From a virus, in the IMG/VR virus record IMGVR_UViG_3300005536_000009, positions 1 to 39,977 of that record: a DNA stretch of 39,977 nucleotides. One strand, 5' to 3'. Below are positions 4,922 through 23,385 of this stretch, in pieces. Both the position numbers and the translations under genes were made by a program. Positions within the stretch are counted from its first letter, which is position 1. The number at the start of each line of letters is the position of its first letter. Below the pieces are notes generated by a model. The model was not told the origin of the DNA, did no database searches, and saw only the letters and a program-made list of their open reading frames with translations.

Positions 4922-5868
4922 TGGGGGCCAACGTCATCTATGTGGACAAGGCTGCTTCGGGAGTCGTCAACTCTGCCATTGCTAGCCTGACGAGCGGTGG
5001 TGTGATCGAGCTAGGCCCGGGCACCTTCGCCGGGGATATCACCTGGACCCAGCCGAACGTCGAGCTACGCGGGGCTGGGGTGGACTCCACGATCTTGTCG
5101 GGTTCGGTTGCGATCCAGACGGGCAGTGTGCAAATGCACGACATGACCGTGCGGGCGACTGGCAAGACCTTTGGCATCAAGTTGTTCAAGTCTGGCGGTG
5201 ATACGCCGCGTTGTCGCTTCTCGAAGGTTGTAATCGGGGCAAGCAGCAGCGGAGCCGGAGACGGACCGGAGCGGGGTATCTGGATGGACGGAGCCATCCT
5301 GTGTGCATTCGATCAGTGCGTGTGTCAGTTCTGTACCAAGTCGGGACTGTATGTGAACACGACGCAGGGGGCCTATTCGACCAACGTCAATACCTTCCGG
5401 GATTGCACATTCAACTCCAACGGGACGGGTGGAACGGGATACGGAGTTGAACTGCTTGAGGGTGGCGACGGGGTTGCCGGGATCATGCTTCCTAGATTTC
5501 TTGGCGGGAACATCGAGAACAATGCAACGGGCGAGTTCTATGCCGACAACTGCACGCTGATTAAGGTTGTCGGCGTTGATTTCGAATCCTCGCAGACCTA
5601 CGACAAGTTCATCGACATCCGGTCCTCGTCTGATGTGACCATTGCCGATTGCAACTTTGTTACCAATGGCAACGCGAACCGGGCCTTTGTGCTCGCTGGC
5701 TGCGAAGCAGGCGTGGTGCGAGATTGTCGTTGGTCAGGGTTCCCGGTGGGCTCCGTGGGTATCTTCACCGACACCTGTGTTCAGTGTGCTGCCTACGACA
5801 ACAACCTCGGTGACGAAACACGAGAGCGTGTCATCAACAATCGTGGCTCCATGCGAGGCAGCAAGTGA
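4921..5868 (+). CDS. Right-handed parallel beta-helix protein (tailspike or pectate-lyase-like fold)
   Basis: 315 residues. The start resembles pectate-lyase-fold phage proteins (YVDKAASG...ASLTSGGVIELGPGTFAGDITWTQPNVELRGAG), and stacked rungs follow, each with small hydrophobics and Asn/Asp/Cys turns (FRDCTFNSNG, VVGVDFESS, VTIADCNFVTN, GVVRDCRWSG). Such beta-helices usually form host-binding or polysaccharide-cutting spikes. No catalytic acidic pair can be picked out, so binding rather than cleavage is possible. The position among surface-type proteins supports a virion role. It is Cys-rich for a spike. Confidence 0.75.
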   Translation: MGANVIYVDKAASGVVNSAIASLTSGGVIELGPGTFAGDITWTQPNVELRGAGVDSTILSGSVAIQTGSVQMHDMTVRATGKTFGIKLFKSGGDTPRCRFSKVVIGASSSGAGDGPERGIWMDGAILCAFDQCVCQFCTKSGLYVNTTQGAYSTNVNTFRDCTFNSNGTGGTGYGVELLEGGDGVAGIMLPRFLGGNIENNATGEFYADNCTLIKVVGVDFESSQTYDKFIDIRSSSDVTIADCNFVTNGNANRAFVLAGCEAGVVRDCRWSGFPVGSVGIFTDTCVQCAAYDNNLGDETRERVINNRGSMRGSK

Positions 5869-10239: not shown

Positions 10240-10895
10240 AAGACGTTATTGGTCACTCACCGGCCATCACCCACGAAGGCAAGATGCAGCACACGTTCTA
10301 CCCTCCCAACGGGACGGTATCCACCTGGATCGCCGACCAGTTCCCGCCGGGGTATGTCGGCTACTGCATCGACGTTGGTGCCAGCGACGGCATGTCCATC
10401 AACTCGACCTACCTACTGGAGAAGCAGCACCGCTGGACCGTGCTGTCGGTCGAGGCGAACCCGTACTACAAGCACCTGCTGAACGAGTGCCGGGCGTTCG
10501 TGAAGATATGCGCGGTCGCGGAGTCCCCCTCGGACGGCGCGGACTTCCACATCAACCTCGACAACCTCGAAGCCTTCTCGTCACTGAAACCAAGACCACA
10601 CCCCAAGTTTATGATCCAGGCGGGGGACCGCTGGGCGACGACAAAGGTTCCAGTGCGGACTCTGGAGCAACTTCTCGAAGAACACGAGTTCCCGAGACTG
10701 GACGCGCTGTGCATTGACACCGAAGGCACCGAGCCGGACGTGCTGCGCGGCATCGACCTCGACAAGTGGAAGCCACACGTCATCGTGGTGGAGTGCTGGG
10801 ACCAAGGCTCACTCGATGACCAGCTAGCCCTATCCGGTTACGAACGCGTGTGGCGTTCGGCCGACAACGATGCGTTCGTGAGGAGACCCGGATGA
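10236..10895 (+). CDS. FkbM-type methyltransferase
   Basis: 219 residues from GTG 10236, chosen because GGGGAGA precedes it and it overlaps the micro-ORF stop by GTGA; TTG 10206 and ATG 10284 are alternatives. A class I SAM motif lies at IDVGASDG (about 45-52) and an acidic end of strand 2 at SVEANP. Further on, VRTLEQLLEEHEFPRLDALCIDTEGTEPDVLRGID is the signature of the FkbM family, which methylates hydroxyls of sugars and polyketides. It likely acts with the neighbouring sugar enzymes. The substrate is unknown. Confidence 0.85.
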   Translation: MKDVIGHSPAITHEGKMQHTFYPPNGTVSTWIADQFPPGYVGYCIDVGASDGMSINSTYLLEKQHRWTVLSVEANPYYKHLLNECRAFVKICAVAESPSDGADFHINLDNLEAFSSLKPRPHPKFMIQAGDRWATTKVPVRTLEQLLEEHEFPRLDALCIDTEGTEPDVLRGIDLDKWKPHVIVVECWDQGSLDDQLALSGYERVWRSADNDAFVRRPG

Positions 10896-11320
10896 GAGAG
10901 AAACGGGTCGTCCGAGAAACCGATCACGGGGACAGGAAGTACCGAGTTATCTTGTCTCCCGGACATCCGTATGCCGACAAAGACGGATTCGTCTACGAGC
11001 ACAGGCTCGTTGTTGAAAGGGCTATCGGGAAACCATTAGCTCCCAGACACCACGTTCATCATGTGGATGGCGACGGTCTTAACAACGCCCCCAACAACCT
11101 CGTGATTTGCGAGAGCATCGGGTACCACAACTCGCTTCACAGAAGGGAGCGCGCCCTAGTGGCTTGCGGGCACGCTGGGTGGTTCTCGTGCCCGTTTTGC
11201 AAGGAATACGATGATCCAAAAAACATGAAGCGGCGGTTCACCAACCGACAGGAGCAATACATGCATGTCAGGTGTTTCAATGCTTGGAGAAGGCACCGGT
11301 ACAAGGAGAAGCCCCGATGA
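10892..11320 (+). CDS. HNH homing endonuclease-like protein
   Basis: 142 residues from ATG 10892. HNH core: EHRLVVERAIGKPL, then HHVHHVDGDGLNNAPNNLVIC with His56/His57, Asn65 and Asn68/69, and His79. A second part has paired Cys (CGH...CPFC) that may bind zinc. The architecture matches free-standing phage homing endonucleases, which cut an allele lacking them and copy themselves in. It is joined seamlessly by ATGA overlaps on both sides, between the FkbM and GT9-like genes, so it does not break the operon. It is not inside a visible intron. Confidence 0.88.
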   Translation: MREKRVVRETDHGDRKYRVILSPGHPYADKDGFVYEHRLVVERAIGKPLAPRHHVHHVDGDGLNNAPNNLVICESIGYHNSLHRRERALVACGHAGWFSCPFCKEYDDPKNMKRRFTNRQEQYMHVRCFNAWRRHRYKEKPR

Positions 11321-12177
11321 GCGAAGTCGTTTTCACCTTCCCGGGGAAACTTGGCGATGCCCTACATCAGTTTCCGGTCGCGTATCACTGGGCCAAACAA
11401 CAAAGTAAGAAGGCCGATCTGTGGCTGGATAAGAAAACCTGTGGCCCGTTGGTGCCCTTGTTTGCGTCCCAACCCTGGGTGGGAGAAGTCAAACTGATGG
11501 AAGGGGTTGAGTCGTATAACTGCGGCGGCCAGCCCTTCCACATGAATCTTCCGACCTCAGCGTTCGAAGGGCACAAGGTCTACCACCTGGGTCTGCGAGC
11601 GTTCCCGGCGCGGCAGTTGACGCTTGAATGCCTGCAAGTCTCGAAGGTCCCGGTCAAGGTCAGCGTCGAAGACCTCGCCAACGAGCCGAGCCTCGTGGTT
11701 CCGGTGCCCGCCAAGTACAACCGGCTCATGCTCCACGGGCAGGCGTGCTACGCGCACACCAAGAACAGCCCGACGTTCTGGAAGTTCCTCGCTGGCATCC
11801 GGGGCGAGTTGGAGCGCATGTTCGACGAGATCGTGTTCGTGGGTGTGGATCGGGACCGCGAAGTGGGGTTGCGGACCTATCCCAACTGGCACGCCTACGA
11901 CGACATTGGGGACTTTGCCAAGCTGGCGGGCTACATCGCGGCCTCGCGCGCCATGATTGCGTGCGGATCGGCACCCGTCGTGCTCGCTGGCCTATTGAAA
12001 GTCCCATCGATCCGGGTCCACGACAAGATCGCCAACGACGCCCCCAAGGTGATTTGGAACAATCTTTCGCCGAGCAGCATCAACGACACGGAAATCGAGC
12101 TCCGCAAGTCCTGGCCGACGTTCCGGGACAAGTGGCTGGTTCAGAAGTCTGTAGACGCCGAGCCCGCAACGACGTAG
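11317..12177 (+). CDS. Glycosyltransferase family 9-like (heptosyltransferase-like) protein
   Basis: 286 residues from ATG 11317. The opening TFPGKLGDALHQFPVAYHWAKQ corresponds to the GDLLLATPVLRAL start of ADP-heptose:LPS heptosyltransferases (GT9, GT-B fold). A C-terminal nucleotide-sugar domain is suggested by FVGVDRDREVGLRTYPNWHAYDDIGDFAKLAGYIAASRAMIACGSAPVVLAGLLKVPSIRV, the conserved layout of GT9. Donor and acceptor are unknown. Its place between packaging and portal genes suggests it glycosylates a virion protein or alters the host surface during infection; both are inference. Confidence 0.7.
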   Translation: MSEVVFTFPGKLGDALHQFPVAYHWAKQQSKKADLWLDKKTCGPLVPLFASQPWVGEVKLMEGVESYNCGGQPFHMNLPTSAFEGHKVYHLGLRAFPARQLTLECLQVSKVPVKVSVEDLANEPSLVVPVPAKYNRLMLHGQACYAHTKNSPTFWKFLAGIRGELERMFDEIVFVGVDRDREVGLRTYPNWHAYDDIGDFAKLAGYIAASRAMIACGSAPVVLAGLLKVPSIRVHDKIANDAPKVIWNNLSPSSINDTEIELRKSWPTFRDKWLVQKSVDAEPATT

Positions 12178-12202
12178 CTTACGCGTTCGGAGGCTTCCAA
12201 GG

Positions 12203-14146
12203 ATGGCCGTAGCGACCACTTCGAACCCCTCGGTAGGGAGACCAGGCGCCAGCGACCGGGCGCCCGCCACAGGCGTTTCTGAGGCCCGTATCATCGACCT
12301 GGTGGATGCCCGCCGCCAAGCCTCCCTGCGCCACAACAGCGTCGTGTTCGGCAAACTCCAGCGCTGGTACGACGCCTACCGTGGGGTCTGGACCGGCCGG
12401 TTGGCCCAGTTCCGCAACAACGTGACTATCCCGTTCACGTTCGCCATGATCCAGTCCGATGTGGCCCGTAAGGTGCAAACCTCCTTCGGCTCGTGGCCCA
12501 TTGTCAGCTTCGAGGGGTATGCCCCCGAGGACGCTCCCCGCGCCAAGAAGAACGAAGTCCTGATTTCGGCGCAAATGAAAGACTGCGACTCGGTTATGCG
12601 GGCGGTGGACTTCTTCCTGCAAGCCGACATCTGCGGCACCGGGGTCGCCCGCTACGGCTGGAAGAACATCACCCGCCGGAACCGAATGCGGAAAATGGAG
12701 CAGATCGCCCCCGGCTACTCGGTCCCGGTTGTCCACGAGTACGACGCGACCATGTTCGATGGCCCGGTGTGGGAGCCGGTGGACCGGCTCGATTTCTGGC
12801 AGCAGCCGGCCCGCAACCGCATTCAGGACATGGCATGGTGTATCCACCGCTACTACGCCGACTTGGACGATCTCCTGGAGGATTCGGTCGGCCCGAGGCC
12901 CTATTTCGACCGCGAGGCCGTGTTGCGGCTCCGGCATAACCCGATGAGTGGCAACATGTCACAGGAGTTCTCGCAGCGGCAGGTGCGGTTCCGGAACGAG
13001 TACGACTACCAAGCCCGCGCCAATGAGCGCTTTGCTAAACCTGTGGAAATATGGGAGATGCACGGCCTTGTGCCGCGCGAGTTCGCGTCTGACGGCATCC
13101 GGTTCCGGTGCATCGCGATTGGCAACGGCAGGGTCGTCTTGAAGAACCGCGAGGGCGCAATGGGGACCAACGAACTCCCGTTCGTGTCCTACTCCCCGAT
13201 GCCGGACCCCTACAGCTTCGATGGGGTCGCCAAGACGGAAATCGCCTACGGACCGCAGCAGACCGCTAACAGGTTGGTAAATCAGCGCCTAGACGCACTG
13301 GACCATCTGATTGACCCGATGTACGTCGCCAACTCCGGGGCGAACCTGAACACGCAGCACTTGTTCACCCGGGCAGGGCGGATCATCCTCGTGGACGGCG
13401 CAGCGGACGAGTCGAACCTGCGCGCGCTGGTCCCGAACATGAACGGCGTGAACTTGGTCCCCGGCGAGATTGGGGCTCAGTTCGGGTTCATGCAGCTCGG
13501 CACAGGCGAGACGGAGTCCCTCCTGGGCCTATCGGGTGGGGGTGGCGGAGGCAACCGCGAAACGGCTCGTGGGTTCCTCGGCCGGCAGGAAAATGCCCTC
13601 ACCCGCTTGGCGATGGAGTCCCGGCTCGCCGAGGAGGGGTTCATCGAGCCGCTGGCGAACGCCTTCCGGCGCATGGACCGGATGTGGCTGCAAATGCCGC
13701 ATGAGGTGAAAATCCTCGGCAGCCTCGCCACCACCGACCCGGTCACGGGGATGCCTTACGCGCCCGAGACATCGACCGTGGACTACGACGACTTGGCACC
13801 GGACTACCGGGCTCGCGCGGTCGGAGCTTCGCAGATGATGGGCCGCAGCGTGCGCCAGCAGAACCTGGTCGCCCTGCTCCAGATGATGTCCGCCAATCCG
13901 GCGCTGTTGCAACTAGTGAACTGGGGCAACTTCGCGCGGCAGGCGTTCGAACTGTTCGACTTCAAGAACGTGAACGATCTGCTCGTCCAGCAGGTGCCGG
14001 GGGTGAACGCGATGGCGGCCGGGGCGGGGATCACTCCCGAGATGGCGGCCGGCGCCGTATCCACTCCGCTGGAGCAACTGAGCCCTGAGATTTTGGGACA
14101 ACTGATGCAAAGCGGGAACGCGGGCAGTCTCGCCGCGCTCCAGTAG
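12203..14146 (+). CDS. Portal protein
   Basis: 647 residues, in the range of podovirus portals. A GGAGG site lies near 12189. The helical N-terminal region (HNSVVFGKLQRWYDAYRGVWTGRLAQFRNNVTIPFTFAMIQSDVARKVQ) is typical of P22-like portals, and the clip and wing region includes ELPFVSYSPMPDPYSFDGVAKTEIAYGPQQTANRLVNQRLDAL. A Gly-rich loop (GGGGGGN) lies near 450. The C-terminus is long and helical, rich in Met, Ala and Gln, like a barrel. It would form the dodecameric DNA channel at one capsid vertex and dock the terminase. Confidence 0.88.
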   Translation: MAVATTSNPSVGRPGASDRAPATGVSEARIIDLVDARRQASLRHNSVVFGKLQRWYDAYRGVWTGRLAQFRNNVTIPFTFAMIQSDVARKVQTSFGSWPIVSFEGYAPEDAPRAKKNEVLISAQMKDCDSVMRAVDFFLQADICGTGVARYGWKNITRRNRMRKMEQIAPGYSVPVVHEYDATMFDGPVWEPVDRLDFWQQPARNRIQDMAWCIHRYYADLDDLLEDSVGPRPYFDREAVLRLRHNPMSGNMSQEFSQRQVRFRNEYDYQARANERFAKPVEIWEMHGLVPREFASDGIRFRCIAIGNGRVVLKNREGAMGTNELPFVSYSPMPDPYSFDGVAKTEIAYGPQQTANRLVNQRLDALDHLIDPMYVANSGANLNTQHLFTRAGRIILVDGAADESNLRALVPNMNGVNLVPGEIGAQFGFMQLGTGETESLLGLSGGGGGGNRETARGFLGRQENALTRLAMESRLAEEGFIEPLANAFRRMDRMWLQMPHEVKILGSLATTDPVTGMPYAPETSTVDYDDLAPDYRARAVGASQMMGRSVRQQNLVALLQMMSANPALLQLVNWGNFARQAFELFDFKNVNDLLVQQVPGVNAMAAGAGITPEMAAGAVSTPLEQLSPEILGQLMQSGNAGSLAALQ

Positions 14147-14152
14147 GCCACC

Positions 14153-14470
14153 ATGCTCAACGACGAGGAAGTGCAACAGGTTAAGCTTGTACTCTCGTTG
14201 GGTGGATGGAACAATGTGATGCGACCCCGGATCGAGAACCGATCCCGGCAGGCAACAAAAGCCCTGGTACTGAGCCGGGCCGAACGCACGAGCCAGTTCG
14301 CAGGGCAGGACTTCGACACCGACGACGACGTGTTGCGAGCGATCATCCGAGACTGTGAGTGGATGATCTACTCGTGGTTGAACGAAGTTGCGGTGGCGGA
14401 TCAAAACAGACGGCGCGACGAACTCGACCGTCAGGACTCGAACGGAACAACCGCTGGCGCGAACCGCTAG
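14153..14470 (+). CDS. Hypothetical protein between portal and scaffold
   Basis: 105 residues, helical and charged (NDEEVQQVKLVLSLGGWNNVMRPRIENRSRQATKALVLSRAERTSQFAG), with a C-terminal tail rich in Arg, Asp and Asn. It starts 6 bases after the portal stop. Position and size would suit a small head-assembly protein. No family is recognised. Confidence 0.65.
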   Translation: MLNDEEVQQVKLVLSLGGWNNVMRPRIENRSRQATKALVLSRAERTSQFAGQDFDTDDDVLRAIIRDCEWMIYSWLNEVAVADQNRRRDELDRQDSNGTTAGANR

Positions 14471-14488
14471 CCGGAAAGGAATCCCGCA

Positions 14489-15220
14489 ATGCCCGACAAC
14501 GATCCAACCCAAACGCAGCAGGCTCCACTCAATCCCGACCTCGCCGGATACCCTTCGGTGGAAGCTCTGGTACAGGGCTACCGATCCAGCGGTGAGGAGG
14601 CGAAGCGCCTCCGCGAGCAGGTCGGGAAGTACGAGTCTGTGCTGGCTCAGGTGGTCCAGAACGGAGGCGTCCCGAACGGTCGCCAAAACGTGCCAGACCG
14701 CCGAGCTACCAGCCCGCAGGACCGGCTCACCGACTTCGGTATCCCGGTCGATGCCCTCGAAGAGATCGTCGAACAGCGCTTGCAGAAGGCGCTGGAGCCG
14801 CTTTCGAGGGGCATTCAAGCGCGTGGCAAGATGGTGTCGGAGCACCCGGACTACGTTCAGTTCGAGAACGACGTGGCGCAGTTCATCAACACCGACCCGG
14901 CTCTCTCACAGAGCTACCCCGTGATGTTCGCGGCGGACCCGGTTGGGGCGATGGAGTACGCGTTTCTCAAGTTCGGTGACTCGCGCCGCCGCACCGCTGG
15001 CCCGCCTGAGGGCAAGACTCGCAATGGAGCGGTGGACGCACAGATTCCCGGTAGCCGTACTGGTGACGGCCGCAGGGCTCCGACTGGTGACGCCCAAATC
15101 CAAGAGGCGTTCGAGCGCTTCAACAAGACGGGCTCCAGTCGGGACGCAGCGGCCTATGCCAAGGCACGGCTCGGACCTCTACTCAAGGACCAGTTCCGAG
15201 CGATGGGGCAAGAGCTTTAG
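14489..15220 (+). CDS. Putative capsid scaffolding protein
   Basis: 243 residues preceded by AAAGGAA. It is acidic and Gln-rich at the start, with GEEAKRLREQVGKYESVLAQVVQ (coiled-coil type), a middle helix VDALEEIVEQRLQKALEPL, and a C-terminal helical segment IQEAFERFNKTGSSRDAAAYAKARLGPLLKDQF. Low complexity with charged helices, and a place directly before the capsid gene, are the usual marks of a scaffold that directs prohead assembly and then leaves. The call depends on context and composition. Confidence 0.72.
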   Translation: MPDNDPTQTQQAPLNPDLAGYPSVEALVQGYRSSGEEAKRLREQVGKYESVLAQVVQNGGVPNGRQNVPDRRATSPQDRLTDFGIPVDALEEIVEQRLQKALEPLSRGIQARGKMVSEHPDYVQFENDVAQFINTDPALSQSYPVMFAADPVGAMEYAFLKFGDSRRRTAGPPEGKTRNGAVDAQIPGSRTGDGRRAPTGDAQIQEAFERFNKTGSSRDAAAYAKARLGPLLKDQFRAMGQEL

Positions 15221-15245
15221 GGACTGATCCAGGAGGCATACGGAA

Positions 15246-16217
15246 ATGCCAGGTACCCAAGGCACACTGGCTGGCGTCTTCTCGGCCTTTGACGCTGGCT
15301 TCAATTCAAATGCCAGTGCGGCTGGCGTGCACCACGAGGATTTGGTTGACATTGTGACCATCCTCGATTCTTTCCAGACGCCGATGTTCAGTTCGGCTCC
15401 GAAGATGCGTGCCAAGGACGTAGTTCATTCATGGACCGTGGACACGCTCGCGGCGACCGCTACGGCTGGCGTCATCGAAGCCGTGGATTTCTCGGGAGAT
15501 ACGCTCACGGGACCCACCCGGCTCGTGAACGGGACGCAGATTTTCTCGCGTCACGTTGCCGTGTCGGATCGCGAGCGCGCGTCGAACTCGGCGGGCATCT
15601 CGGACATGTACGAGCACCAGGTGATGAAGGAGTTCAAGGTCATCGCCCGCAACTGCGAGGCTCGCCTGTGGGCGATCTCGTCCACGGGTTCGGCGACCGG
15701 CGCCGAGGCAGCCACGAACGCTCCGCTCATGGCGGGGTTCCGTGGCTTCGGCATCACGACTTCGTCCTCGGCCTCGGGCGGAGTCACGACGGCGGATATT
15801 GTCACGCTGTCGCAGACCTTGTTCGAGAACGGCGCGGAGCCCGACTCGATCTGGTTCGCACCGGCATCGAAGCGGCAGTTCGTGAACGCCACCGTCTCGT
15901 CTGGCTCGGGCAACGTGCGCAACATCGCGGCGACCGACCAGCGTCTCGTGGCGAACATCGACGTGTTCGAGACGCCGTTCAACCAGCTGTACGCGGTCAT
16001 CACGGATCGGTTCATCCCGATCAGCACGAACTCGGCCTCCGGTGCCTACTACATCGGCGACCGCAGCATGGCGAAGATCGCGTTCTTCCGGCCGCCCCAG
16101 CACAAGGCGATGGGTAAGGGCGGCGATCACACGCGCGGCATCGTACTCATGGAGTGCACGCTGCAATTGGACCACCCATCGTCTTGGGGCGCAATTACTG
16201 GCGTCACAAACGGTTAA
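15246..16217 (+). CDS. Major capsid protein, SU10-like (DUF5309) HK97 fold
   Basis: 323 residues with a strong AGGAGG site at 15231-15236. The sequence HHEDLVDIVTILDSFQTPMFSSAPKMRAKDVVHSWTVDTLAA is the hallmark of the SU10-type capsid family, where an N-terminal arm leads into HxWxxDxL. Further matches are NGTQIFSRHVAVSDRERA, an E-loop-like region and the late SIWFAPASKRQFVNA and YIGDRSMAKIAFFRPP. It forms the icosahedral shell. An inverted-repeat intergenic region follows. Confidence 0.9.
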   Translation: MPGTQGTLAGVFSAFDAGFNSNASAAGVHHEDLVDIVTILDSFQTPMFSSAPKMRAKDVVHSWTVDTLAATATAGVIEAVDFSGDTLTGPTRLVNGTQIFSRHVAVSDRERASNSAGISDMYEHQVMKEFKVIARNCEARLWAISSTGSATGAEAATNAPLMAGFRGFGITTSSSASGGVTTADIVTLSQTLFENGAEPDSIWFAPASKRQFVNATVSSGSGNVRNIAATDQRLVANIDVFETPFNQLYAVITDRFIPISTNSASGAYYIGDRSMAKIAFFRPPQHKAMGKGGDHTRGIVLMECTLQLDHPSSWGAITGVTNG

Positions 16218-16225
16218 GGTCTTTT

Positions 16226-16294
16226 TGTTGGTAGGATAATCTTGTTGCGAGGCGGGATTGTCAGGATTATACTAGGCCATCCCGCCAACCAACA
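16226..16294 (+). other. Nested inverted repeats between capsid and endonuclease genes
   Basis: An outer 7-base repeat pairs TGTTGGT (16226-16232) with ACCAACA (16288-16294). An inner 8-base perfect repeat pairs GGCGGGAT (16251-16258) with ATCCCGCC (16279-16286). The right outer arm touches the AGGAGG site of the next gene. In RNA this could fold into one long hairpin that lowers capsid-gene read-through or hides the Shine-Dalgarno site. The -10 sequence TATACT lies in the inner loop, so a DNA operator is an alternative. Confidence 0.55.
16245..16273 (+). promoter_or_regulatory. Candidate sigma-70-type promoter before the endonuclease VII-like gene
   Basis: TTGCGA (16245-16250), a 17-base spacer and TATACT (16268-16273) give a fair match to a bacterial vegetative promoter, reading into the endonuclease gene. 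The two arms of a perfect inverted repeat flank the -10 element. No transcript data are available. Confidence 0.45.
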
Positions 16295-16304
16295 GGAGGG
16301 TCCG

Positions 16305-16757
16305 ATGCCGTACAGCAGTAAAGAGAAGCAGACCGAGTATCACCGCAAGTACTACGCGAAGAACAGAGAACGTCTCAAAGAGTACAAACGGAAGTGGCAG
16401 CAAGAGAATCCGGAGAAGAGAGTGGAGTACTCGCGCAGGCAGCATGCTCGATACGAAGCCGATCCGGAGAAGTACCGAGCCTACTTCCGCAACCGCAGGA
16501 TCAAGAGAGAGTACGATCTCACCGAAGCTGAGTACGCTGCCTGGGTCGTAAAGCAGGGCGGTAGGTGCGGTATCTGTGGCAAGGAACCGAGCGGCCAGTG
16601 GCACGGAGACAGGATGCTCAACGTGGACCACGATCACGAAACGGGAGCAGTTCGTGGACTGTTGTGCAATCGTTGTAACCGGGCATTGGGGCTCGTTGGA
16701 GATACCGAGGAAGCAGTCCAAAAACTCATGGACTACTTGATCGGAGCGAAGCGGTAA
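16305..16757 (+). CDS. Endonuclease VII-like (His-Me finger) nuclease
   Basis: 150 residues from ATG 16305, with AGGAGGG at 16294-16300. The first 70 residues are strongly charged and rich in Tyr, Arg and Lys (YHRKYYAKNRERLKEYKRKW), which suits DNA wrapping. The nuclease core has zinc Cys88, Cys91, Cys121 and Cys124 and NVDHDHETGAVRGLLCNRCNRALG, the signature of recombination endonuclease VII, a resolvase of DNA junctions in phage T4. In many phages this family acts as a free-standing homing endonuclease. The insertion between capsid and small head genes, its own promoter, and structured flanks suggest mobility. Confidence 0.87.
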   Translation: MPYSSKEKQTEYHRKYYAKNRERLKEYKRKWQQENPEKRVEYSRRQHARYEADPEKYRAYFRNRRIKREYDLTEAEYAAWVVKQGGRCGICGKEPSGQWHGDRMLNVDHDHETGAVRGLLCNRCNRALGLVGDTEEAVQKLMDYLIGAKR

Positions 16758-16829
16758 TCTTGGGGAGGGTGCTGGGCCGGGGTCACGGTCTTCGTGGGGA
16801 ACCCTGGAGTCAACGGCACCCTCTCAAGA
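16758..16829 (+). other. Long inverted repeat after the endonuclease gene
   Basis: TCTTGGGGAGGGTGC (16758-16772) pairs with GCACCCTCTCAAGA (16816-16829) over 14 pairs with one bulged G and one G-T pair. The left arm starts directly after the TAA of the endonuclease gene, and AAAGGAG of the next gene begins at the end of the right arm. It may end the endonuclease transcript, protect RNA, or control access to the next gene. There is no U-run, so it is not a classic terminator. Confidence 0.5.
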
Positions 16830-16841
16830 AAGGAGTTTCAA

Positions 16842-17132
16842 ATGGCAGGTAATCAGAGCCGTGGGTTGATCGCGGCCTCGAAAACTCGCGGGTGGGACCC
16901 GACCGTGATTCAGGGTACGGGCGAGAGCATCGCCAACTTCGACAAGGACCAAGGAAACTTGCCGGGGCGTCCTGTCGGCACGCTTCCGGACGGCACTCCC
17001 GATTCGTGGCCCGACGAGCGCGGGATCCCCTCGCTGGAGGTTGGCACGGCCGCATTCAGTCACCCTGACACCGATCGCGAGAACACAGCGCGGCGCACGC
17101 GCAATGCCGATCCCTTCGCAGGCATGTCATGA
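16842..17132 (+). CDS. Small hypothetical head-region protein
   Basis: 96 residues from ATG 16842 with AAAGGAG at 16829-16835. It is rich in Gly, Pro, Asp and Arg and looks largely disordered (KTRGWDPTVIQGTGESIANFDKDQ; RPVGTLPDGTPDSWPDE). It follows the endonuclease insertion and starts a run of four small genes joined by short overlaps. A minor head role is likely from position only. Confidence 0.62.
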   Translation: MAGNQSRGLIAASKTRGWDPTVIQGTGESIANFDKDQGNLPGRPVGTLPDGTPDSWPDERGIPSLEVGTAAFSHPDTDRENTARRTRNADPFAGMS

Positions 17133-17413
17133 GCCCGAACCCAAACCCGAAGGGCACTGGAACAACCGTCTACTCACCCGAGGCCATTTTGTCGAAGGGC
17201 GCGGGCACGGTGTTTCGGGGGGCTCCGGACCTCGGCATCATCGCCGGTCCGGAGTACTCTCCACAGCTTCCGGGAACGCTGAGTCATGCTGGAGAGAGCT
17301 ACGATGGTCCGTGTGGGTCCGGGCCTATCCGTGACAGCGGCGGAGCAGGGTCCGACATCTCGGGAGATTCCCCGGGACTGGATTCCGGGGCGGGTACACC
17401 ACCGCAGGAATAG
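17129..17413 (+). CDS. Small Gly/Pro/Ser-rich hypothetical protein
   Basis: 94 residues starting in an ATGA overlap. The sequence is dominated by Gly, Pro and Ser, with little hydrophobic core, and ends DSGAGTPPQE. It may be a flexible minor virion component. No family is recognised. Confidence 0.55.
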   Translation: MSPNPNPKGTGTTVYSPEAILSKGAGTVFRGAPDLGIIAGPEYSPQLPGTLSHAGESYDGPCGSGPIRDSGGAGSDISGDSPGLDSGAGTPPQE

Positions 17414-17423
17414 GGGGCACGAT

Positions 17424-17720
17424 ATGGTTGTGGTCTTCAAGGGCGGTACCAGTGGCAATCGGCAGGACGCGCTGCCTCCGACTCCGTCATCGGGCAATGC
17501 TCAGCCGGTACTCCGGACTGAGACTTCGGGGGCAGTTCCGAGCACGATCCATCTGCAAGCCGAGAACTTCGAGCAGTCGCACTACCAGCAGGCGACGCCG
17601 GACTTCATGCCTACGGGCGGCACGATTCCGGAGGGCTCCAGCGATATCTGTCAGCAGGACATCGAGAACATCAGCCCGCAGCGGGGTGCGAAGTTCTTCG
17701 GCGAGAACATCGAGACATGA
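17424..17720 (+). CDS. Small hypothetical head-region protein
   Basis: 98 residues from ATG 17424, preceded by AGGGGGC. After a short hydrophobic start (VVVFKGG) it is polar and Pro/Ser/Thr-rich, ending SPQRGAKFFGENIET. Like its two upstream neighbours it looks loosely folded. It overlaps the next gene by ATGA. Function unknown. Confidence 0.58.
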   Translation: MVVVFKGGTSGNRQDALPPTPSSGNAQPVLRTETSGAVPSTIHLQAENFEQSHYQQATPDFMPTGGTIPEGSSDICQQDIENISPQRGAKFFGENIET

Positions 17721-18085
17721 GCGAGCCGAACGGCAGTTTCTTCATCTCGAAGCCGGAGACGGCGGTGGACGAAGTGCTGAACCCGGACATGCTCTTGAAG
17801 GCGGCCCCGGAGTACTACGGCCCACGCTTCGACGCCATCGCTGACCTGCGTGCCCAAGACGACGGCTCGCTGCATCGCGGGCAGGGGTTCCGGCGCGTGG
17901 CGTCACTCGTCAATGTCCCGTTGTTCGCAGCGGTTCGCACGGTGCTGGACCACGAGTTCATGCAGGACCGCAAAAAGTTTTATGCGTGGTTACGGAGAAA
18001 TCGCCGGTACTGTACTTACGACATCAGGTCGCACACGGTTCGCCCCAAGGGAACCATCACCTATGTAGACGGCAAGGCGGTGTAA
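17717..18085 (+). CDS. Hypothetical protein, possible head-tail joining component
   Basis: 122 residues from ATGA overlap. It has a folded look: GFRRVASLVNVPLFAAVRTVLDHEFMQDRKKFYAWLRRNRRYCTYDI, closing with a beta pair (TVRPKGTITYVDG). It precedes the LAGLIDADG gene and, beyond the inserted GT4-like gene, the tail adaptor. A head-completion role is a guess from order. Confidence 0.6.
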   Translation: MSEPNGSFFISKPETAVDEVLNPDMLLKAAPEYYGPRFDAIADLRAQDDGSLHRGQGFRRVASLVNVPLFAAVRTVLDHEFMQDRKKFYAWLRRNRRYCTYDIRSHTVRPKGTITYVDGKAV

Positions 18086-18086
18086 C

Positions 18087-18587
18087 GTGGCGCGCGGCAC
18101 TGACGGCCCACCAGTAAAAAAGCTGAGTGAACCCCATGCGGCTTACATTGCGGGGCTCATTGATGGGGAGGGATGTATTCGTGCGGGATTTGTTAGTACG
18201 GGGATCGTTTCTGCCAGTTTGACTGTCTCGATGACGGATGCCCCGACAATGCGCTGGTTACACGATACGGTTGGTGCGGGGTGCCTACGGACGTATGCGC
18301 CCAAGAAGCACTATCGAAGAGCCTGGCGATTCATTCTTGGGGCGCATCGGGCGGCCGATCTCTTGCGCCAGATTACCCCGCACATGATTACCAAGCGAAG
18401 AGAGGCCGAGTTGTTCGTTGAACTTATGGACCTGCGAGCGACCCTTAATCACGGCAGCAGATCACGCGGGCAAATCCGGGGGACATCCGGACGGCCAAGC
18501 AAGTTTTCCATGGCACCCGATCAACACCTGAGGCTCATTTCGGGGCTTGCACAAGAAAAACGCCGCGATTATGGGAAGGCTGTGTGA
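18087..18587 (+). CDS. LAGLIDADG homing endonuclease, single motif
   Basis: 166 residues from GTG 18087, with AAGGCGG upstream. The motif IAGLIDGEGCI lies at 21-31, with the acidic catalytic position at Glu28. After it come a beta-rich DNA-contact part (SLTVSMTDAPTMRWLHDTVGAGCLR...WRFILGAHRAADLLRQITPHMITKRREAELFVELM) and a basic tail. One motif means it should act as a homodimer on a palindrome-like site. It is free-standing, not in an intron, and overlaps the start of the GT4-like gene by GTGA, so it may have moved with that gene. Confidence 0.9.
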   Translation: MARGTDGPPVKKLSEPHAAYIAGLIDGEGCIRAGFVSTGIVSASLTVSMTDAPTMRWLHDTVGAGCLRTYAPKKHYRRAWRFILGAHRAADLLRQITPHMITKRREAELFVELMDLRATLNHGSRSRGQIRGTSGRPSKFSMAPDQHLRLISGLAQEKRRDYGKAV

Positions 18588-19948
18588 AGCCACTTCGGGT
18601 CTATACCCTAATCCCGTACAGCCACACGGCCTCGCAGTACTACCGTGCCGAGGTGGTGCTGGAGACTGCCGCAACGCTCGGGCTGCCGATCCAATCCGTC
18701 ATCGACCGCCACGACGCCGGCACCAGTGCCGAGGAGCGTGTGTCGCAGTTCTGCGAGTCGGACATCATCCTGCTCTACCAGCCGCTCGGAGACACCGCCA
18801 TCAACAACGTGCGCGGCGTGCAGGGCTTCCTGCCATCCAAGCGGGACGGAGACTGGAAGTGGGCGCCGAGCTTCGTGATCGAGACGGACGACAACCTGTT
18901 CAATGTCTCCCCGCTGAACCAGGCGTTCAAGAGTCTCGGCGTGCGGGACATGAACGGCACCACGATTCCGCTCGGGCATGAGATCGGCGTGGTCCAGGAC
19001 GGCGAACGCAAGGTGCTGTGGTACGACACCTCGTTGATGAACGGCAGCCGCCCCGAGCGTCGCGACACTGCACGGCCGATCAATCTCGCCAAGAACCGCC
19101 AGTCCATCGCCAGTTACCGCACGCTCTTGGAGATGGCGGACCAGGTCCAGTGTTCCACGCCAGCCGTCGAAGCAGCCGTTCGCAAGGAGGTCACGCCCCG
19201 CAGAACGCGGGTGTTCCCGAACCTCGTGCGTTTCGACCATTACCCGCAGGTCCATCTCGCGGAGAACCCCGATCAGATCAAGATTCTCTGGCAGGGTGGT
19301 ATTGCCCACTACGAGGACTGGTATCCACTGCGCGAGCAGTTGGGCCGCATCACGAGCAAGTACCCGCAGGTTCACTGGGTCATCTGGGGGGCACAGTTCC
19401 CGTGGGTCAACGAGTTGATCCCGCCGCACCGCTATACGTTCCAGGACTGGTGCCCGTACCAGGAGTACAAGCTGCGCCTGTGCATGATCGGGCACGACAT
19501 CTCGCTCGCACCGCTGTCGGACAACGTGTTCAACTGCTGCCGGAGCGCGATCAAGTTCTACGAGTCCTCGGTGCTTCACAAGCCCGCTGCAACGTTGGCG
19601 CAGAACACCGCTGCCTACCGGGCGGAGATCGTGGACGGAGAGACCGCCCTGTTGTTCAACAATCCCGACGAGTTCGAGGAGAAACTGTCCCGGCTGATCG
19701 AGGATGTGACCTACCGCAAGCAACTGGCAGCGAACGCGAAGGACTGGGTGTCGGAGAACCGGGACGCGATGAAGGTGGTGCCGAGCATCATCGAGTCATG
19801 GGAGCGCTTGCGCGAGGAGCGGACTATCGAGCAGCCGCACGTCGGCGAGTCCGAATGGTTGGAAATCGAGCAAGCCGACCGAGCCGAGCAGGAAGCGGAG
19901 AACGGAGTCACGGATGAGCCTGTTCCAGCCCTCGACGAAAGCGGTTAG
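18584..19948 (+). CDS. Glycosyltransferase family 4-like (GT-B) protein
   Basis: 454 residues from GTG 18584. The N-terminal half is alpha/beta with TLIPYSHTASQYYRAEVVLETAATLGLPIQ. The C-terminal half has IKILWQGGIAHYEDWYPLREQLGRITSKYPQVHWVIWG, then CMIGHDISLAPLSDNVFNCCRSAIKFYESSVLHKPAATLAQNTAAYRAEIVDGETALLFNNPDEFEEKLSRLI, the GT4 layout with the glutamates that contact the donor sugar in KFYE. It transfers a sugar from a nucleotide donor; the target is unknown. It is inserted between head genes and the tail adaptor, beside a homing endonuclease. A charged C-terminal tail overlaps the next gene by 35 bases. Confidence 0.87.
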   Translation: MKPLRVYTLIPYSHTASQYYRAEVVLETAATLGLPIQSVIDRHDAGTSAEERVSQFCESDIILLYQPLGDTAINNVRGVQGFLPSKRDGDWKWAPSFVIETDDNLFNVSPLNQAFKSLGVRDMNGTTIPLGHEIGVVQDGERKVLWYDTSLMNGSRPERRDTARPINLAKNRQSIASYRTLLEMADQVQCSTPAVEAAVRKEVTPRRTRVFPNLVRFDHYPQVHLAENPDQIKILWQGGIAHYEDWYPLREQLGRITSKYPQVHWVIWGAQFPWVNELIPPHRYTFQDWCPYQEYKLRLCMIGHDISLAPLSDNVFNCCRSAIKFYESSVLHKPAATLAQNTAAYRAEIVDGETALLFNNPDEFEEKLSRLIEDVTYRKQLAANAKDWVSENRDAMKVVPSIIESWERLREERTIEQPHVGESEWLEIEQADRAEQEAENGVTDEPVPALDESG

Positions 19949-20840
19949 CGCCGCCTGCCAAGAGATCGCAGACACGGTCGGCGCGTCCGGCGATGCGGAG
20001 ATGACGACCCGCGCCGGACGTTCGCTGTTTGCCGGACTCCAGCACTTCAACAACCGCGCGAACTGGAACTTCGCCCTGACTGAAGCCGCGCCGATCACCG
20101 TGTTTGCCCCGTTCAACGTGAGTTTGACGGCCTCGGCAGGGCAAGCTTCGGCGGCCGCTCCGGCTGGACACGGAGTCAAGCCCTACGACTTCATCATCGC
20201 GTCAGGGTTTGCTGCCGGGGTCCGCGTCTCCGCTACTGCTGCTTCGGGGGTCGGGTTCTACGGCACCGTGACGGGGTTCTCGGCAGGCGCGACAGTCATC
20301 ACGGGCAACTTCACGCGCGACATGTACGACCTGCCGACCGATTGGAAACAGCCCTACAGCCTACGACTCTTGGCCTCGCAGAAAGTGGTGCGCCCGATCG
20401 GTCGGCGGCTCTACGACCGCTCCATCACCAGTGAGCAGCAGTCGAGCTCGGTCGAGTGGTACGACGTGTTCATGGTCGGCAGCACCGGGCGGATTCGCCT
20501 GCTGCCGCCGCCCCCGAGCGCGGACATCCTGCAAATCCGCTACTACCGCCGCATGACCATCCCGACCACGAGCGCCACGGCTGACGTTGTGGACATCCCG
20601 CAGGACTTCGAGCCCTACCTCGTGGCGTGGTCCAAGTGGCATTTCCTGGTGGACAAGGGAGAGGGTCGGGGCGACCAGATGAAGACCTGGTTCGTGATGG
20701 CAGACGAGGGCCTGAAGACCATGCTGCGGGAGCAGACGCGGCAGCCCGACGAAGACCTCGCGTTCATTCCGGGCCAGTATCAGTACGGCAATCGTGGCGA
20801 CAACGTCACCCGGTTCCTCGACTGGAACTATTCGGACTGA
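19914..20840 (+). CDS. Putative head-tail adaptor or tail tube protein
   Basis: 308 residues. It begins AACQEIADTVGASGDAEMTTRAGRSLFAGLQHFNNRANWNFAL, a pattern seen in podovirus adaptor proteins (gp4- or tail-tubular-A-like). Mid-protein beta segments and TDWKQPYSLRLLASQKVVRPIGRRLYDR, later ADILQIRYYRRM and LVAWSKWHFLVDKGEGR, fit the same type. It probably docks below the portal and carries the nozzle. It is followed directly by the large nozzle-type gene, as in other short-tailed phages. Confidence 0.62.
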   Translation: MSLFQPSTKAVSAACQEIADTVGASGDAEMTTRAGRSLFAGLQHFNNRANWNFALTEAAPITVFAPFNVSLTASAGQASAAAPAGHGVKPYDFIIASGFAAGVRVSATAASGVGFYGTVTGFSAGATVITGNFTRDMYDLPTDWKQPYSLRLLASQKVVRPIGRRLYDRSITSEQQSSSVEWYDVFMVGSTGRIRLLPPPPSADILQIRYYRRMTIPTTSATADVVDIPQDFEPYLVAWSKWHFLVDKGEGRGDQMKTWFVMADEGLKTMLREQTRQPDEDLAFIPGQYQYGNRGDNVTRFLDWNYSD

Positions 20841-20841
20841 C

Positions 20842-23385
20842 ATGGGACGCAAGACCGAACCCCTCACGGGCGGCTTGGTCACGGACCGAGACCCCGCGCT
20901 CCTGAAGCCCGGCCAGCTCTCCGACATGCGGAACATGGTGTACCGGAACGGCGCTGCCGCCTTGGAGCGCGCTGCCGGCCGGACCGCGTTCGTGACCGTG
21001 TCCTCGGTCGCCACGTCGGTGAACGGGCTGCGCGACATTAGCTTCGACAACGGGGACCGCTACCTGGTTTCGATGGCGGGCACGAAGTACCGCTACTCGA
21101 CCCTGTCCGCTGCCCCCACCGCCACCGATCTCGCGACCATCGCCTCGGGCACTTCGCTGGAGGTGGTGCAGTACCGCAATCGGTTCTTCCTGATGAACGG
21201 AGCCCGGGCCGACTCCTCGGCCATCGGCACCAACGTGGTCGCCTACCTGAGTGCCACGGCCAACAACACGGTGCCGACGACCCGCCAGCACGGCATGTTG
21301 CAGGTCAACGCGGCCCCTAGTGTGAGCACCGCCGCCGGGGCGTTCTCGCAGACCGTGACGGGCTACTACGAGTACTGGACCACCGAGATCGCGAGGCTCA
21401 CGCAGGACGGGGCGCAGGTCACGCTGGAGTCGGCGTTCTCGTCGGACAACGGTCCTTCGACGGTGCTGGTCTCCGCGACCGGCGTGGTGCCGGTGATCCA
21501 GTTGCCGACGATCCGCAACTCGATCACGACCGGCTGGCGCATCTACCGGGGCACTGTCAAGACCGTCGCCTCGGACAAGTCCTTCCCCACCGGCTTTATG
21601 ATTGCGGAGCTCACGACTGCCGCCTCGGCCCATGCGGATAGCACGGCCGTGGCCTCAGCGTCATCGTTCCCGGCATCGGTCAATAGCGGCGGCAACTTCT
21701 ACGTCGGGTTCGCCAGCGCCTCGTCGATGTTCTCGGACAATGGCGTCTATGCCTCCGGGAGCGTCGGAGCCATCTCCACCGAGGTCCAGCAGGGCGTCTA
21801 CAACTTCTCGCTGGGTAGTTTCTCTGGGGTCGTGAAGGGCATTGCCGTCGAAGTCCAGGGGTATGTGAGCACGGGCACGGCCCCGGCTCCCATCACGGTC
21901 TCCATCGGGCAGCGGCGGTTCGACGGGCATTTCGTTCAGCGGTTTGGTTTGCAGGACTTCTCGGCCTCGAAGTCGGGGCTCTTGACGAGCACGAACTCGG
22001 CGGCTCCGACCACGATCACGCTCGGGTCCTCGACGGACCGCTGGTTCCCGACCGACTCCCCGGGCCTCGCCGACACCGACTTCGATGCGAACTTCCTCGT
22101 CGTCATCGCGACTTCGAAGCCCAACACGGCGGTGGGCATCGACTACGTCAAGGTGTTTGTCTACTACGGTGCCAGCGTGGACTCGACGGTTCAGTTCCCA
22201 GCGGTGGTCTACACGTTCGGGGACATCACGAGCCAGGTGGCGAAGAACTTCCCGCCGCCCTCCGCCAACACCGGGGACGTGTTCCAGGATTCTCTCGTCA
22301 CGAACGACGTGCTGAACCGCTCGCTGGTGCGCTACAGCTTCCCGGGGGAGCCGGAGTACTTCCCCCCGACCTACTTCATCGACTTCGAGACGCGCGAGAA
22401 CGACTACGTTCGCGCCATTCGCACGGTGAACAACCGGCTCATGGTCGGGCTCGACAGTTCGCTCTGGCGCATCAACTACCTGCCATCCGAGCGCGACTCC
22501 AGCTTTGATCGCGGTAAGGCCATTGACGTGGTGTCGCGCTCCTATGGCATCGTGAACCCGATGTGTTGCTGCAACTTCACCGTCGATGGCGAGTCGGAGC
22601 AGTTGGCGTTCATCTCCAACAAGGGGTTGCACACCACGGACGGGTTCAACTTCCTGACGCGGTCGCGCAACCAGAACTGGCGCAACTTCATTTCGCTGCT
22701 CGGCACCAGCACACCGATCGCGCTCATCAACGACCAGGAGAAGCGCGAACTGCTGTTCTACTACCGGAACGACACCGACGCCAACGGTGAGTACTACATG
22801 TGCCTGCACGCCTCCTACGACAAGAGCGACATCGACGGCGAGGGGAACTTCAAGTTCTCGGGGCCGGTCCACATGCAGAACTACGAGGCGGCTGGGGGGA
22901 CTGTCGCGAGTCTGGAGTCCGCGTGGACGGTGAACCGGACGACGGGCAACACGACCGTGTTCTTGGGCTACGGCAACAACAGCACCGTGGCGGCGAACTC
23001 GACCACGGCGGGAGCCGGCAAGGTTTACCAGGAGAGCGGCACCACGATCCCGGCGGCGGACTCGACCTGTCAGTACACGACCCGGCGTATCTACGCGGCC
23101 GGGCTGTCCGGTGAATGGATGCTGGACGACCTGTACGGCTACTGCGGCAGTTACGCGGGCTCGCCGATCATCACCTACACGTTCAAGGGCACGAAGACCA
23201 ATGACGCCGGGGAGACGACGCGGGGCACCAAGAACATCACGCTCGCCGGGGGGGTGTTGCACCACGTCTCGCCCAAGGTTCAGGTCGAGGGGTTGCGGAT
23301 CACGATGCAGGCGACGGCGACCACGTTCGAAGAGGAAATGCTCGTGCTCGGCAGCACGACGTTCGGACTGGAGGACGCCCGATAG
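20842..23385 (+). CDS. Putative tail nozzle (tail tubular protein B-like) protein
   Basis: 847 residues from ATG 20842. The opening LTGGLVTDRDPALLKPGQLSDMRNMVYRNGAAALERAAGRT is characteristic of podovirus nozzle or tail tubular B-type proteins. The length, repeating beta-blades, and segments such as NDYVRAIRTVNNRLMVGLDSSLWRI and QLAFISNKGLHTTDGFNFLTRSRNQNW fit a beta-propeller-containing nozzle. It would seal the tail channel and carry fibres. The ORF on the opposite strand here is long but unlikely to be real. Confidence 0.72.
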   Translation: MGRKTEPLTGGLVTDRDPALLKPGQLSDMRNMVYRNGAAALERAAGRTAFVTVSSVATSVNGLRDISFDNGDRYLVSMAGTKYRYSTLSAAPTATDLATIASGTSLEVVQYRNRFFLMNGARADSSAIGTNVVAYLSATANNTVPTTRQHGMLQVNAAPSVSTAAGAFSQTVTGYYEYWTTEIARLTQDGAQVTLESAFSSDNGPSTVLVSATGVVPVIQLPTIRNSITTGWRIYRGTVKTVASDKSFPTGFMIAELTTAASAHADSTAVASASSFPASVNSGGNFYVGFASASSMFSDNGVYASGSVGAISTEVQQGVYNFSLGSFSGVVKGIAVEVQGYVSTGTAPAPITVSIGQRRFDGHFVQRFGLQDFSASKSGLLTSTNSAAPTTITLGSSTDRWFPTDSPGLADTDFDANFLVVIATSKPNTAVGIDYVKVFVYYGASVDSTVQFPAVVYTFGDITSQVAKNFPPPSANTGDVFQDSLVTNDVLNRSLVRYSFPGEPEYFPPTYFIDFETRENDYVRAIRTVNNRLMVGLDSSLWRINYLPSERDSSFDRGKAIDVVSRSYGIVNPMCCCNFTVDGESEQLAFISNKGLHTTDGFNFLTRSRNQNWRNFISLLGTSTPIALINDQEKRELLFYYRNDTDANGEYYMCLHASYDKSDIDGEGNFKFSGPVHMQNYEAAGGTVASLESAWTVNRTTGNTTVFLGYGNNSTVAANSTTAGAGKVYQESGTTIPAADSTCQYTTRRIYAAGLSGEWMLDDLYGYCGSYAGSPIITYTFKGTKTNDAGETTRGTKNITLAGGVLHHVSPKVQVEGLRITMQATATTFEEEMLVLGSTTFGLEDAR

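Follow-up and report, generated by a model that had tools for sequence, protein, structure and literature searches.

A promoter-like site in a hairpin predicted to close the ribosome site of an endonuclease VII-family gene inserted behind a phage capsid gene

How is a nuclease gene expressed that lies directly behind the major capsid gene of a phage, and could its leader tell a capsid transcript from a transcript of its own? The stretch of DNA analyzed here (the window) is a virus record of 39,977 bases, assigned to an SU10-type phage by its capsid (PF17236) and portal (PF23899) genes. Between the capsid stop codon (16215–16217) and the ATG of an Endonuclease VII-family gene (16305) lies a leader of 87 bases; the next gene after the nuclease is a small one. 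The original prediction described a promoter-like site within nested inverted repeats in this leader, and proposed that the fold hides the ribosome site on the capsid transcript and leaves it open on a shorter transcript. The features of the region are as follows.

15246–16217, plus strand: major capsid gene (SU10-type; PF17236, 3e-52), the proposed source of a read-through transcript
16218–16750, plus strand: inserted cassette of leader and endonuclease gene, absent from the relative L005 (blastn breaks at 16216 and 16751)
16220–16232, plus strand: outer left arm 1, TCTTTTTGTTGGT, predicted to pair with 16288–16300 including the entire AGGAGG, partly through G.U pairs
16240–16247, plus strand: outer left arm 2, TCTTGTTG, predicted to pair with CAACAGGA at 16290–16297 in competition with arm 1
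16245–16250, plus strand: -35-like TTGCGA, from the promoter scan
16251–16258, plus strand: inner left arm, GGCGGGAT, from direct reading and the repeat scan
16268–16273, plus strand: -10-like TATACT in the hairpin loop, separated from TTGCGA by a 17-base spacer
16279–16286, plus strand: inner right arm, ATCCCGCC, with the expected transcription start on its first bases
16288–16294, plus strand: outer right arm, ACCAACA, from direct reading and the repeat scan
16294–16299, plus strand: Shine-Dalgarno sequence AGGAGG, with a spacer of 5 to the ATG at 16305
16305–16757, plus strand: Endonuclease VII-family gene, 150 aa (PF02945, 1.3e-23; phrog_2914, 1.5e-33)

Direct reading and scans recovered every element of the original prediction, namely the sigma70-like TTGCGA-17-TATACT, the 8-base and 7-base repeats and the AGGAGG; their arrangement needed some correction. 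The promoter had been placed inside the 8-base repeat, which holds for the -10 element and the spacer, whereas the -35 element abuts the left arm from outside. From these elements we infer promoter activity with a start at about 16279–16280, at the beginning of the inner right arm and not, as had been suggested, within the loop. The outer 7-bp repeat (TGTTGGT at 16226–16232, ACCAACA at 16288–16294) does reach AGGAGG; the contact is actually an overlap of one base, and in the fold of a 90-nt leader RNA the pairing continues through AGGAGG. The two left arms that can pair with the ribosome site form a direct repeat with a 17-base spacing. The leader also contains an extra inverted repeat (TAGGATAATCTTG / CAGGATTATACTA, within 16232–16274), overlapped by a minus-strand promoter-like CTGACA-17-GATTAT; this pair of features could reflect an alternative fold, an antisense start or chance.

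The nested pair, with the 8-bp repeat enclosed by the 7-bp one, did not occur in 5000 dinucleotide shuffles of the leader, and an 8-bp repeat alone occurred in 113 of 5000. The 90-nt RNA folds at -36.9 kcal/mol, compared to a shuffle mean of -23.7 (z = -4.09), and none of 200 shuffles was as stable; the leader is mostly paired in this fold, with AGGAGG joined to the stretch from 16220 largely by G.U pairs. The site at 16245–16273 is the sole plus-strand sigma70-like match within 12000–22000, a match that on its own is not significant because 1.5 such sites are expected by chance in that interval on both strands. The strongest sigma70-like site of the window lies elsewhere (TTGACA-18-TATAGT, 39598–39569, minus strand, 11/12), upstream of a leftward reading frame, and a scan of 12 related records for the strict pattern of this type gave no match.

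The nuclease gene has an open frame and matches PF02945 at 83.1 bits (curated cut-off 23.6). Its conserved cysteines (CxxC), DHDH and CxxCN residues, which we take to have catalytic and zinc roles, are all kept, and the profile of the group's nucleases matches T4 endonuclease VII at 7e-8. Relative L005 is collinear with the window up to 16216 (92.8% identity over the 4.7 kb upstream) and resumes at 16751. In this empty site the capsid stop runs almost directly into the sequence that provides the final codon and the stop of the window nuclease (CGG TAA, 16751–16757) and that is thus common to both. A second insertion pair is formed by L012 (filled) and L016 (empty); the L012 nuclease is 43–45% identical to that of the window, and its frame continues for several codons in recipient sequence until it meets a stop (~5230–5255, common to L016). 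Leader and gene are both missing from the empty sites, which shows that they arrived together. A PF02945 gene is present in 7 of the 43 records reached via capsid loci, to which the window is additional, and always directly 3′ of the capsid gene. With empty sites in L005 and L016, the capsid-downstream position displays the presence and precise-absence pattern expected of a homing endonuclease, and the window nuclease gene is probably mobile. Between the window and L002 there are no differences across 16140–16827, while the preceding 76 bases of the capsid gene differ at 18 positions; this block fits a recent transfer including flanks, and is weak evidence for it because the two records share further identical stretches as long as 606 bases.

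The window carries two further nuclease genes. An ORF at 18087–18587 (LAGLIDADG-like, HNH-annotated; phrog_5046, 4e-17) looks like a second precise insertion, missing from L002 and L005 with breaks at 18083 and 18571–18573; its start lies 1 base past the preceding stop, and it lacks a leader. An HNH endonuclease ORF at 10850–11320 (phrog_10730, 1.8e-15) overlaps the ORF upstream of it. A promoter-in-hairpin leader was found at neither gene.

Seven distinct endonuclease insertions directly follow the capsid gene. PF02945 genes are found in the window (identical to L002), L006, L012 (represented also by L015), L033, L039 and L029, and an HNH_3 gene in L035. In six of these a sigma70-like promoter is overlapped by a hairpin, and by sequence position the transcript from this promoter would miss the left arm; the exception is L029, where the capsid gene is followed by an Endonuclease VII gene in whose leader no own promoter was found. 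Since the leaders of L006, L012 and L033 are related, the six cases comprise four leader types, which share the layout and have unrelated arm sequences.

These leaders were compared with capsid-downstream leaders that precede no endonuclease gene. Near-duplicates (L002, L015, L021, L024, L028, L030–L032, L042) were removed beforehand, and L017 and L018 were excluded because their sequence is cut off after the capsid gene. Thirty-eight loci entered the promoter comparison, with no leader found for L004, L026 and L195; for the opening costs L203 was also excluded, and L012 and L013 were given manually chosen starts. Promoter scores, from a matrix of our own that approximates the E. coli sigma70 consensus, were 6.8–11.1 in the six endonuclease leaders, the window having the best match, against a maximum of 4.9 and a median of -0.5 in 28 leaders without endonuclease (p = 1.1e-4 including L029). 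The cost of opening the Shine-Dalgarno sequence was 8.0–13.8 kcal/mol in the six, the top six values among 34 leaders, with all others at or below 7.6 (Mann-Whitney p = 7e-7 with L029 included); this p value and that for the promoter scores are both too small because of partial relatedness among the leaders.

Hairpins as such are common after this capsid gene (fold z mostly -1.6 to -6 in leaders without endonuclease), and the distinguishing mark of the endonuclease leaders is, in the predicted folds, a ribosome site within the stem. That stable hairpins are usual there would suit an explanation in which cleavage of the long stem, by RNase III or some other RNase, separates the capsid and nuclease messages, so that a 5′ end at about 16280 would be a cut and not a start, and the hairpin a processing and stability element. 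The length of the stems, for example 15 + 7 pairs in L033, points the same way. However, the hairpins without endonuclease keep the Shine-Dalgarno sequence more open (median cost 3.4, compared to 8.6 with endonuclease) and have no promoter-like sites, and processing alone leaves the cassette-borne promoter-like site unexplained. We consider this explanation improbable.

In the alignment of L006, L012 and L033, 15 of 20 pairs are invariant among standard pairs, three vary on one side and two on both; one of the pairs counted as invariant arises from a matched insertion confined to L012, and three cells break the pairing. The covariation support that this suggests is modest. It also bears on whether the inverted repeats, which flank the -10 element, might act as a DNA operator at which a protein, perhaps the nuclease itself, represses its own promoter, like I-TevI at its operator. 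Arm sequences vary among the relatives while pairing is kept, and G.U pairs would be needless for a DNA palindrome, both of which speak against an operator. Furthermore, the leader resembles the empty target no better than shuffles do (56% and 82% of 300 scored as high), and a homing-site-like operator was rejected on this ground. Regulation at such an operator thus seems very unlikely to us.

If the stem instead acts in RNA as a translational switch, the two transcripts should differ in their predicted folds, and folding both in silico had been proposed as a check. The long transcript was taken from the capsid stop and the short one from the seventh base past the -10 element, the cost being that of opening the six ribosome-site bases (long, then short).

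Window: 8.0 and 6.2 kcal/mol
L006: 8.2 and 0.6 kcal/mol
L012: 10.9 and 1.3 kcal/mol
L033: 11.2 and 0.9 kcal/mol
L035: 13.0 and 3.4 kcal/mol
L039: 12.3 and 3.3 kcal/mol

The proposal that the long capsid transcript hides the ribosome site is borne out in prediction for the window, and the same layout recurs in the relatives; closure as strong was seen in 5% of shuffles for the window and in 0 of 200 for each of the other five. The cost drops by 7.6–10.3 kcal/mol in L039, L006, L012, L033 and L035 (matched by at most 1 of 200 shuffles), so that the predicted open state of the short transcript is supported in these relatives (0.6–3.4 kcal/mol), where the predicted switch is clear. In the window, by contrast, the short transcript stays partly closed (6.2 kcal/mol), the drop of 1.8 kcal/mol being equalled by 26% of shuffles. 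The opening is small because the own-promoter transcript retains CCCGCC, which pairs with GGAGGG. When the ribosome site through the start codon is considered, the opening cost in the window falls from 14.1 to 8.3. As modeled, the open state is therefore weaker in the window than in any of the other five examples, and the window combines a closed state with a weak predicted open one.

Opening costs of 5.9–7.5 kcal/mol for the short window transcript at every start tested (16274–16282) would be in line with a decayed or incomplete copy, in which both transcripts are closed and the gene is poorly expressed or translationally coupled to the capsid gene; outer left arm 1 starts 3 nt past the capsid stop, where a terminating ribosome could reach it. 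On the other hand, leader and gene recur unchanged in a second metagenome (the block shared with L002), the nuclease is intact in frame and conserved residues, and its promoter match tops the six. We regard decay as doubtful, and retain the switch as the preferred reading.

The predicted switch is sensitive to what is folded. When 60 nt of capsid coding sequence was added to the long transcript, the mean unpaired probability in the window was 0.34 for the long and 0.35 for the short transcript, closure exceeded shuffles in L039 only, the drop reached the 3–4% shuffle level in L039 and L012 only, and the L006 effect had reversed sign. We prefer the setting without capsid coding sequence because this stretch is normally covered by ribosomes; this is a choice, and the outcome depends on it.

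Outside the capsid-downstream site, megablast of the region against named phages gave no match, nor did an Rfam search. A scan of viral contigs with the leader pattern returned only the already known sources L006, L012, L015 and L033, the leader search of genome contigs gave two weak loci, and a scan with the L035 protein had its own contig as sole match. That the layout is general for Endonuclease VII genes was rejected: a strict layout test was passed by 4 of 70 leaders, all from this group and not including that of the window, and by 3 of 245 controls, two of which duplicate the genes of L033 and L039, so that 1 of 243 remains. None of 12 named phages had the layout, seven of them having an intergenic gap of at most 25 bases. 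HNH_3 genes gave 24 matches in 11 of 43 records of related phages, and among the 18 HNH_3 leaders listed, judged by eye and unscored, the layout was present only in the post-capsid one. The group is small in the collections searched. The record of L035 (G028, 43.6 kb) has nine HNH_3 matches and is a heavily invaded genome. Two unrelated phages with Endonuclease VII genes have leaders of some likeness: in L112 (~1310–1368) TTGACA-17-TATATT lies in a hairpin before AAAGGAGAG, with an opening cost going from 4.6 to 1.3, and in L097 (~1300–1392) TATAAATA lies inside a long stem. In the Klebsiella T7-like phages L242 and L246 an Endonuclease VII-like gene that has no leader sits tightly between the genes for two tail (tubular) proteins.

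On balance, the predicted folds lead us to lean towards a T4-like promoter-in-hairpin translational switch with the wiring reversed, in which late read-through from the capsid gene would be closed and a host-type promoter would provide the open form. On the read-through transcript the leader would form a long stem, in which the Shine-Dalgarno sequence is paired to an arm that precedes the transcription start. With its ribosome site so paired, the nuclease would hardly be translated despite heavy capsid transcription, little being made either by initiation or by re-initiation after the capsid stop. The sigma70-type promoter within the stem would yield a short message that lacks the left arms and whose ribosome site would therefore be less closed. 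Because the cassette brings its own switch, it would be insulated from the operon it has invaded. The sigma70-like promoters and the structural gene upstream suggest early or steady low-level production of the nuclease, with its gene closed on late messages; we infer this timing, like the effect on translation and the mobility, from sequence and its predicted folds. More tentatively, and with rather less than even confidence, we propose that a mobile nuclease residing in a late capsid operon, closed to capsid transcripts and expressed solely from a host-type promoter, either early or at a low level, represents a reversal of the T4 timing that evolved or was exchanged repeatedly (four leader types and two nuclease families at one site).

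The parallel with T4 I-TevI that was drawn originally is apt and extends to I-TevII, I-TevIII, segB and mobE (PMC2988022, sections 9 and 12). It holds for the layout; the wiring is opposite, in that the own promoter is late in T4 and sigma70-like here, with read-through coming from the capsid gene. In I-TevII, as in I-TevI and I-TevIII, the own promoter lies within a hairpin and the ribosome site is part of the right arm (PMC2988022), the long transcript being closed and the short one lacking the left arm (PMC2988022, section 12); we confirmed the I-TevII layout directly in its sequence. These three are intron-encoded GIY-YIG or HNH enzymes, and their closed transcripts are early or middle. 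I-TevII uses the T4 late promoter TATAAATA, which is absent from the window leader with its upstream capsid gene, whereas window-type leaders carry sigma70-like hexamers. T4 gene 49 encodes endonuclease VII, of the same domain family, and is named as a hairpin-controlled case in PMC3014915. Its ribosome site is predicted to be closed, with an opening cost by like computation of 10.2 kcal/mol (10.7 for I-TevII), near those of the six leaders; in contrast to them it is a recombination gene with late expression, not a cassette inserted after a capsid gene. The segB gene of T4 and mobE of phage Aeh1 are, like the gene studied here, free-standing nuclease genes that lie within a transcription unit of their host and whose ribosome site is part of a hairpin (PMC2988022), but have late promoters and belong to T4-like phages. 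In seg43(25) of Aeromonas phage 25 the base of a very stable hairpin abuts the ribosome site (PMC2988022, section 12) and leaves it unpaired, whereas the window hairpin is predicted to pair with it. A comparable switch outside T4-like phages was not found in the open-access literature searched. Endonuclease-specific promoters of T4 are middle or late, none early (PMC2988022, sections 9 and 12), and the genes under hairpin control are late ones carried on early or middle messages (PMC2988022; PMC3014915). The reversed case in unrelated phages would, if true, point to selection for insulation from the host operon and not for late expression as such, and the natural variants at one site, together with the empty sites, form a comparison set for testing this idea.
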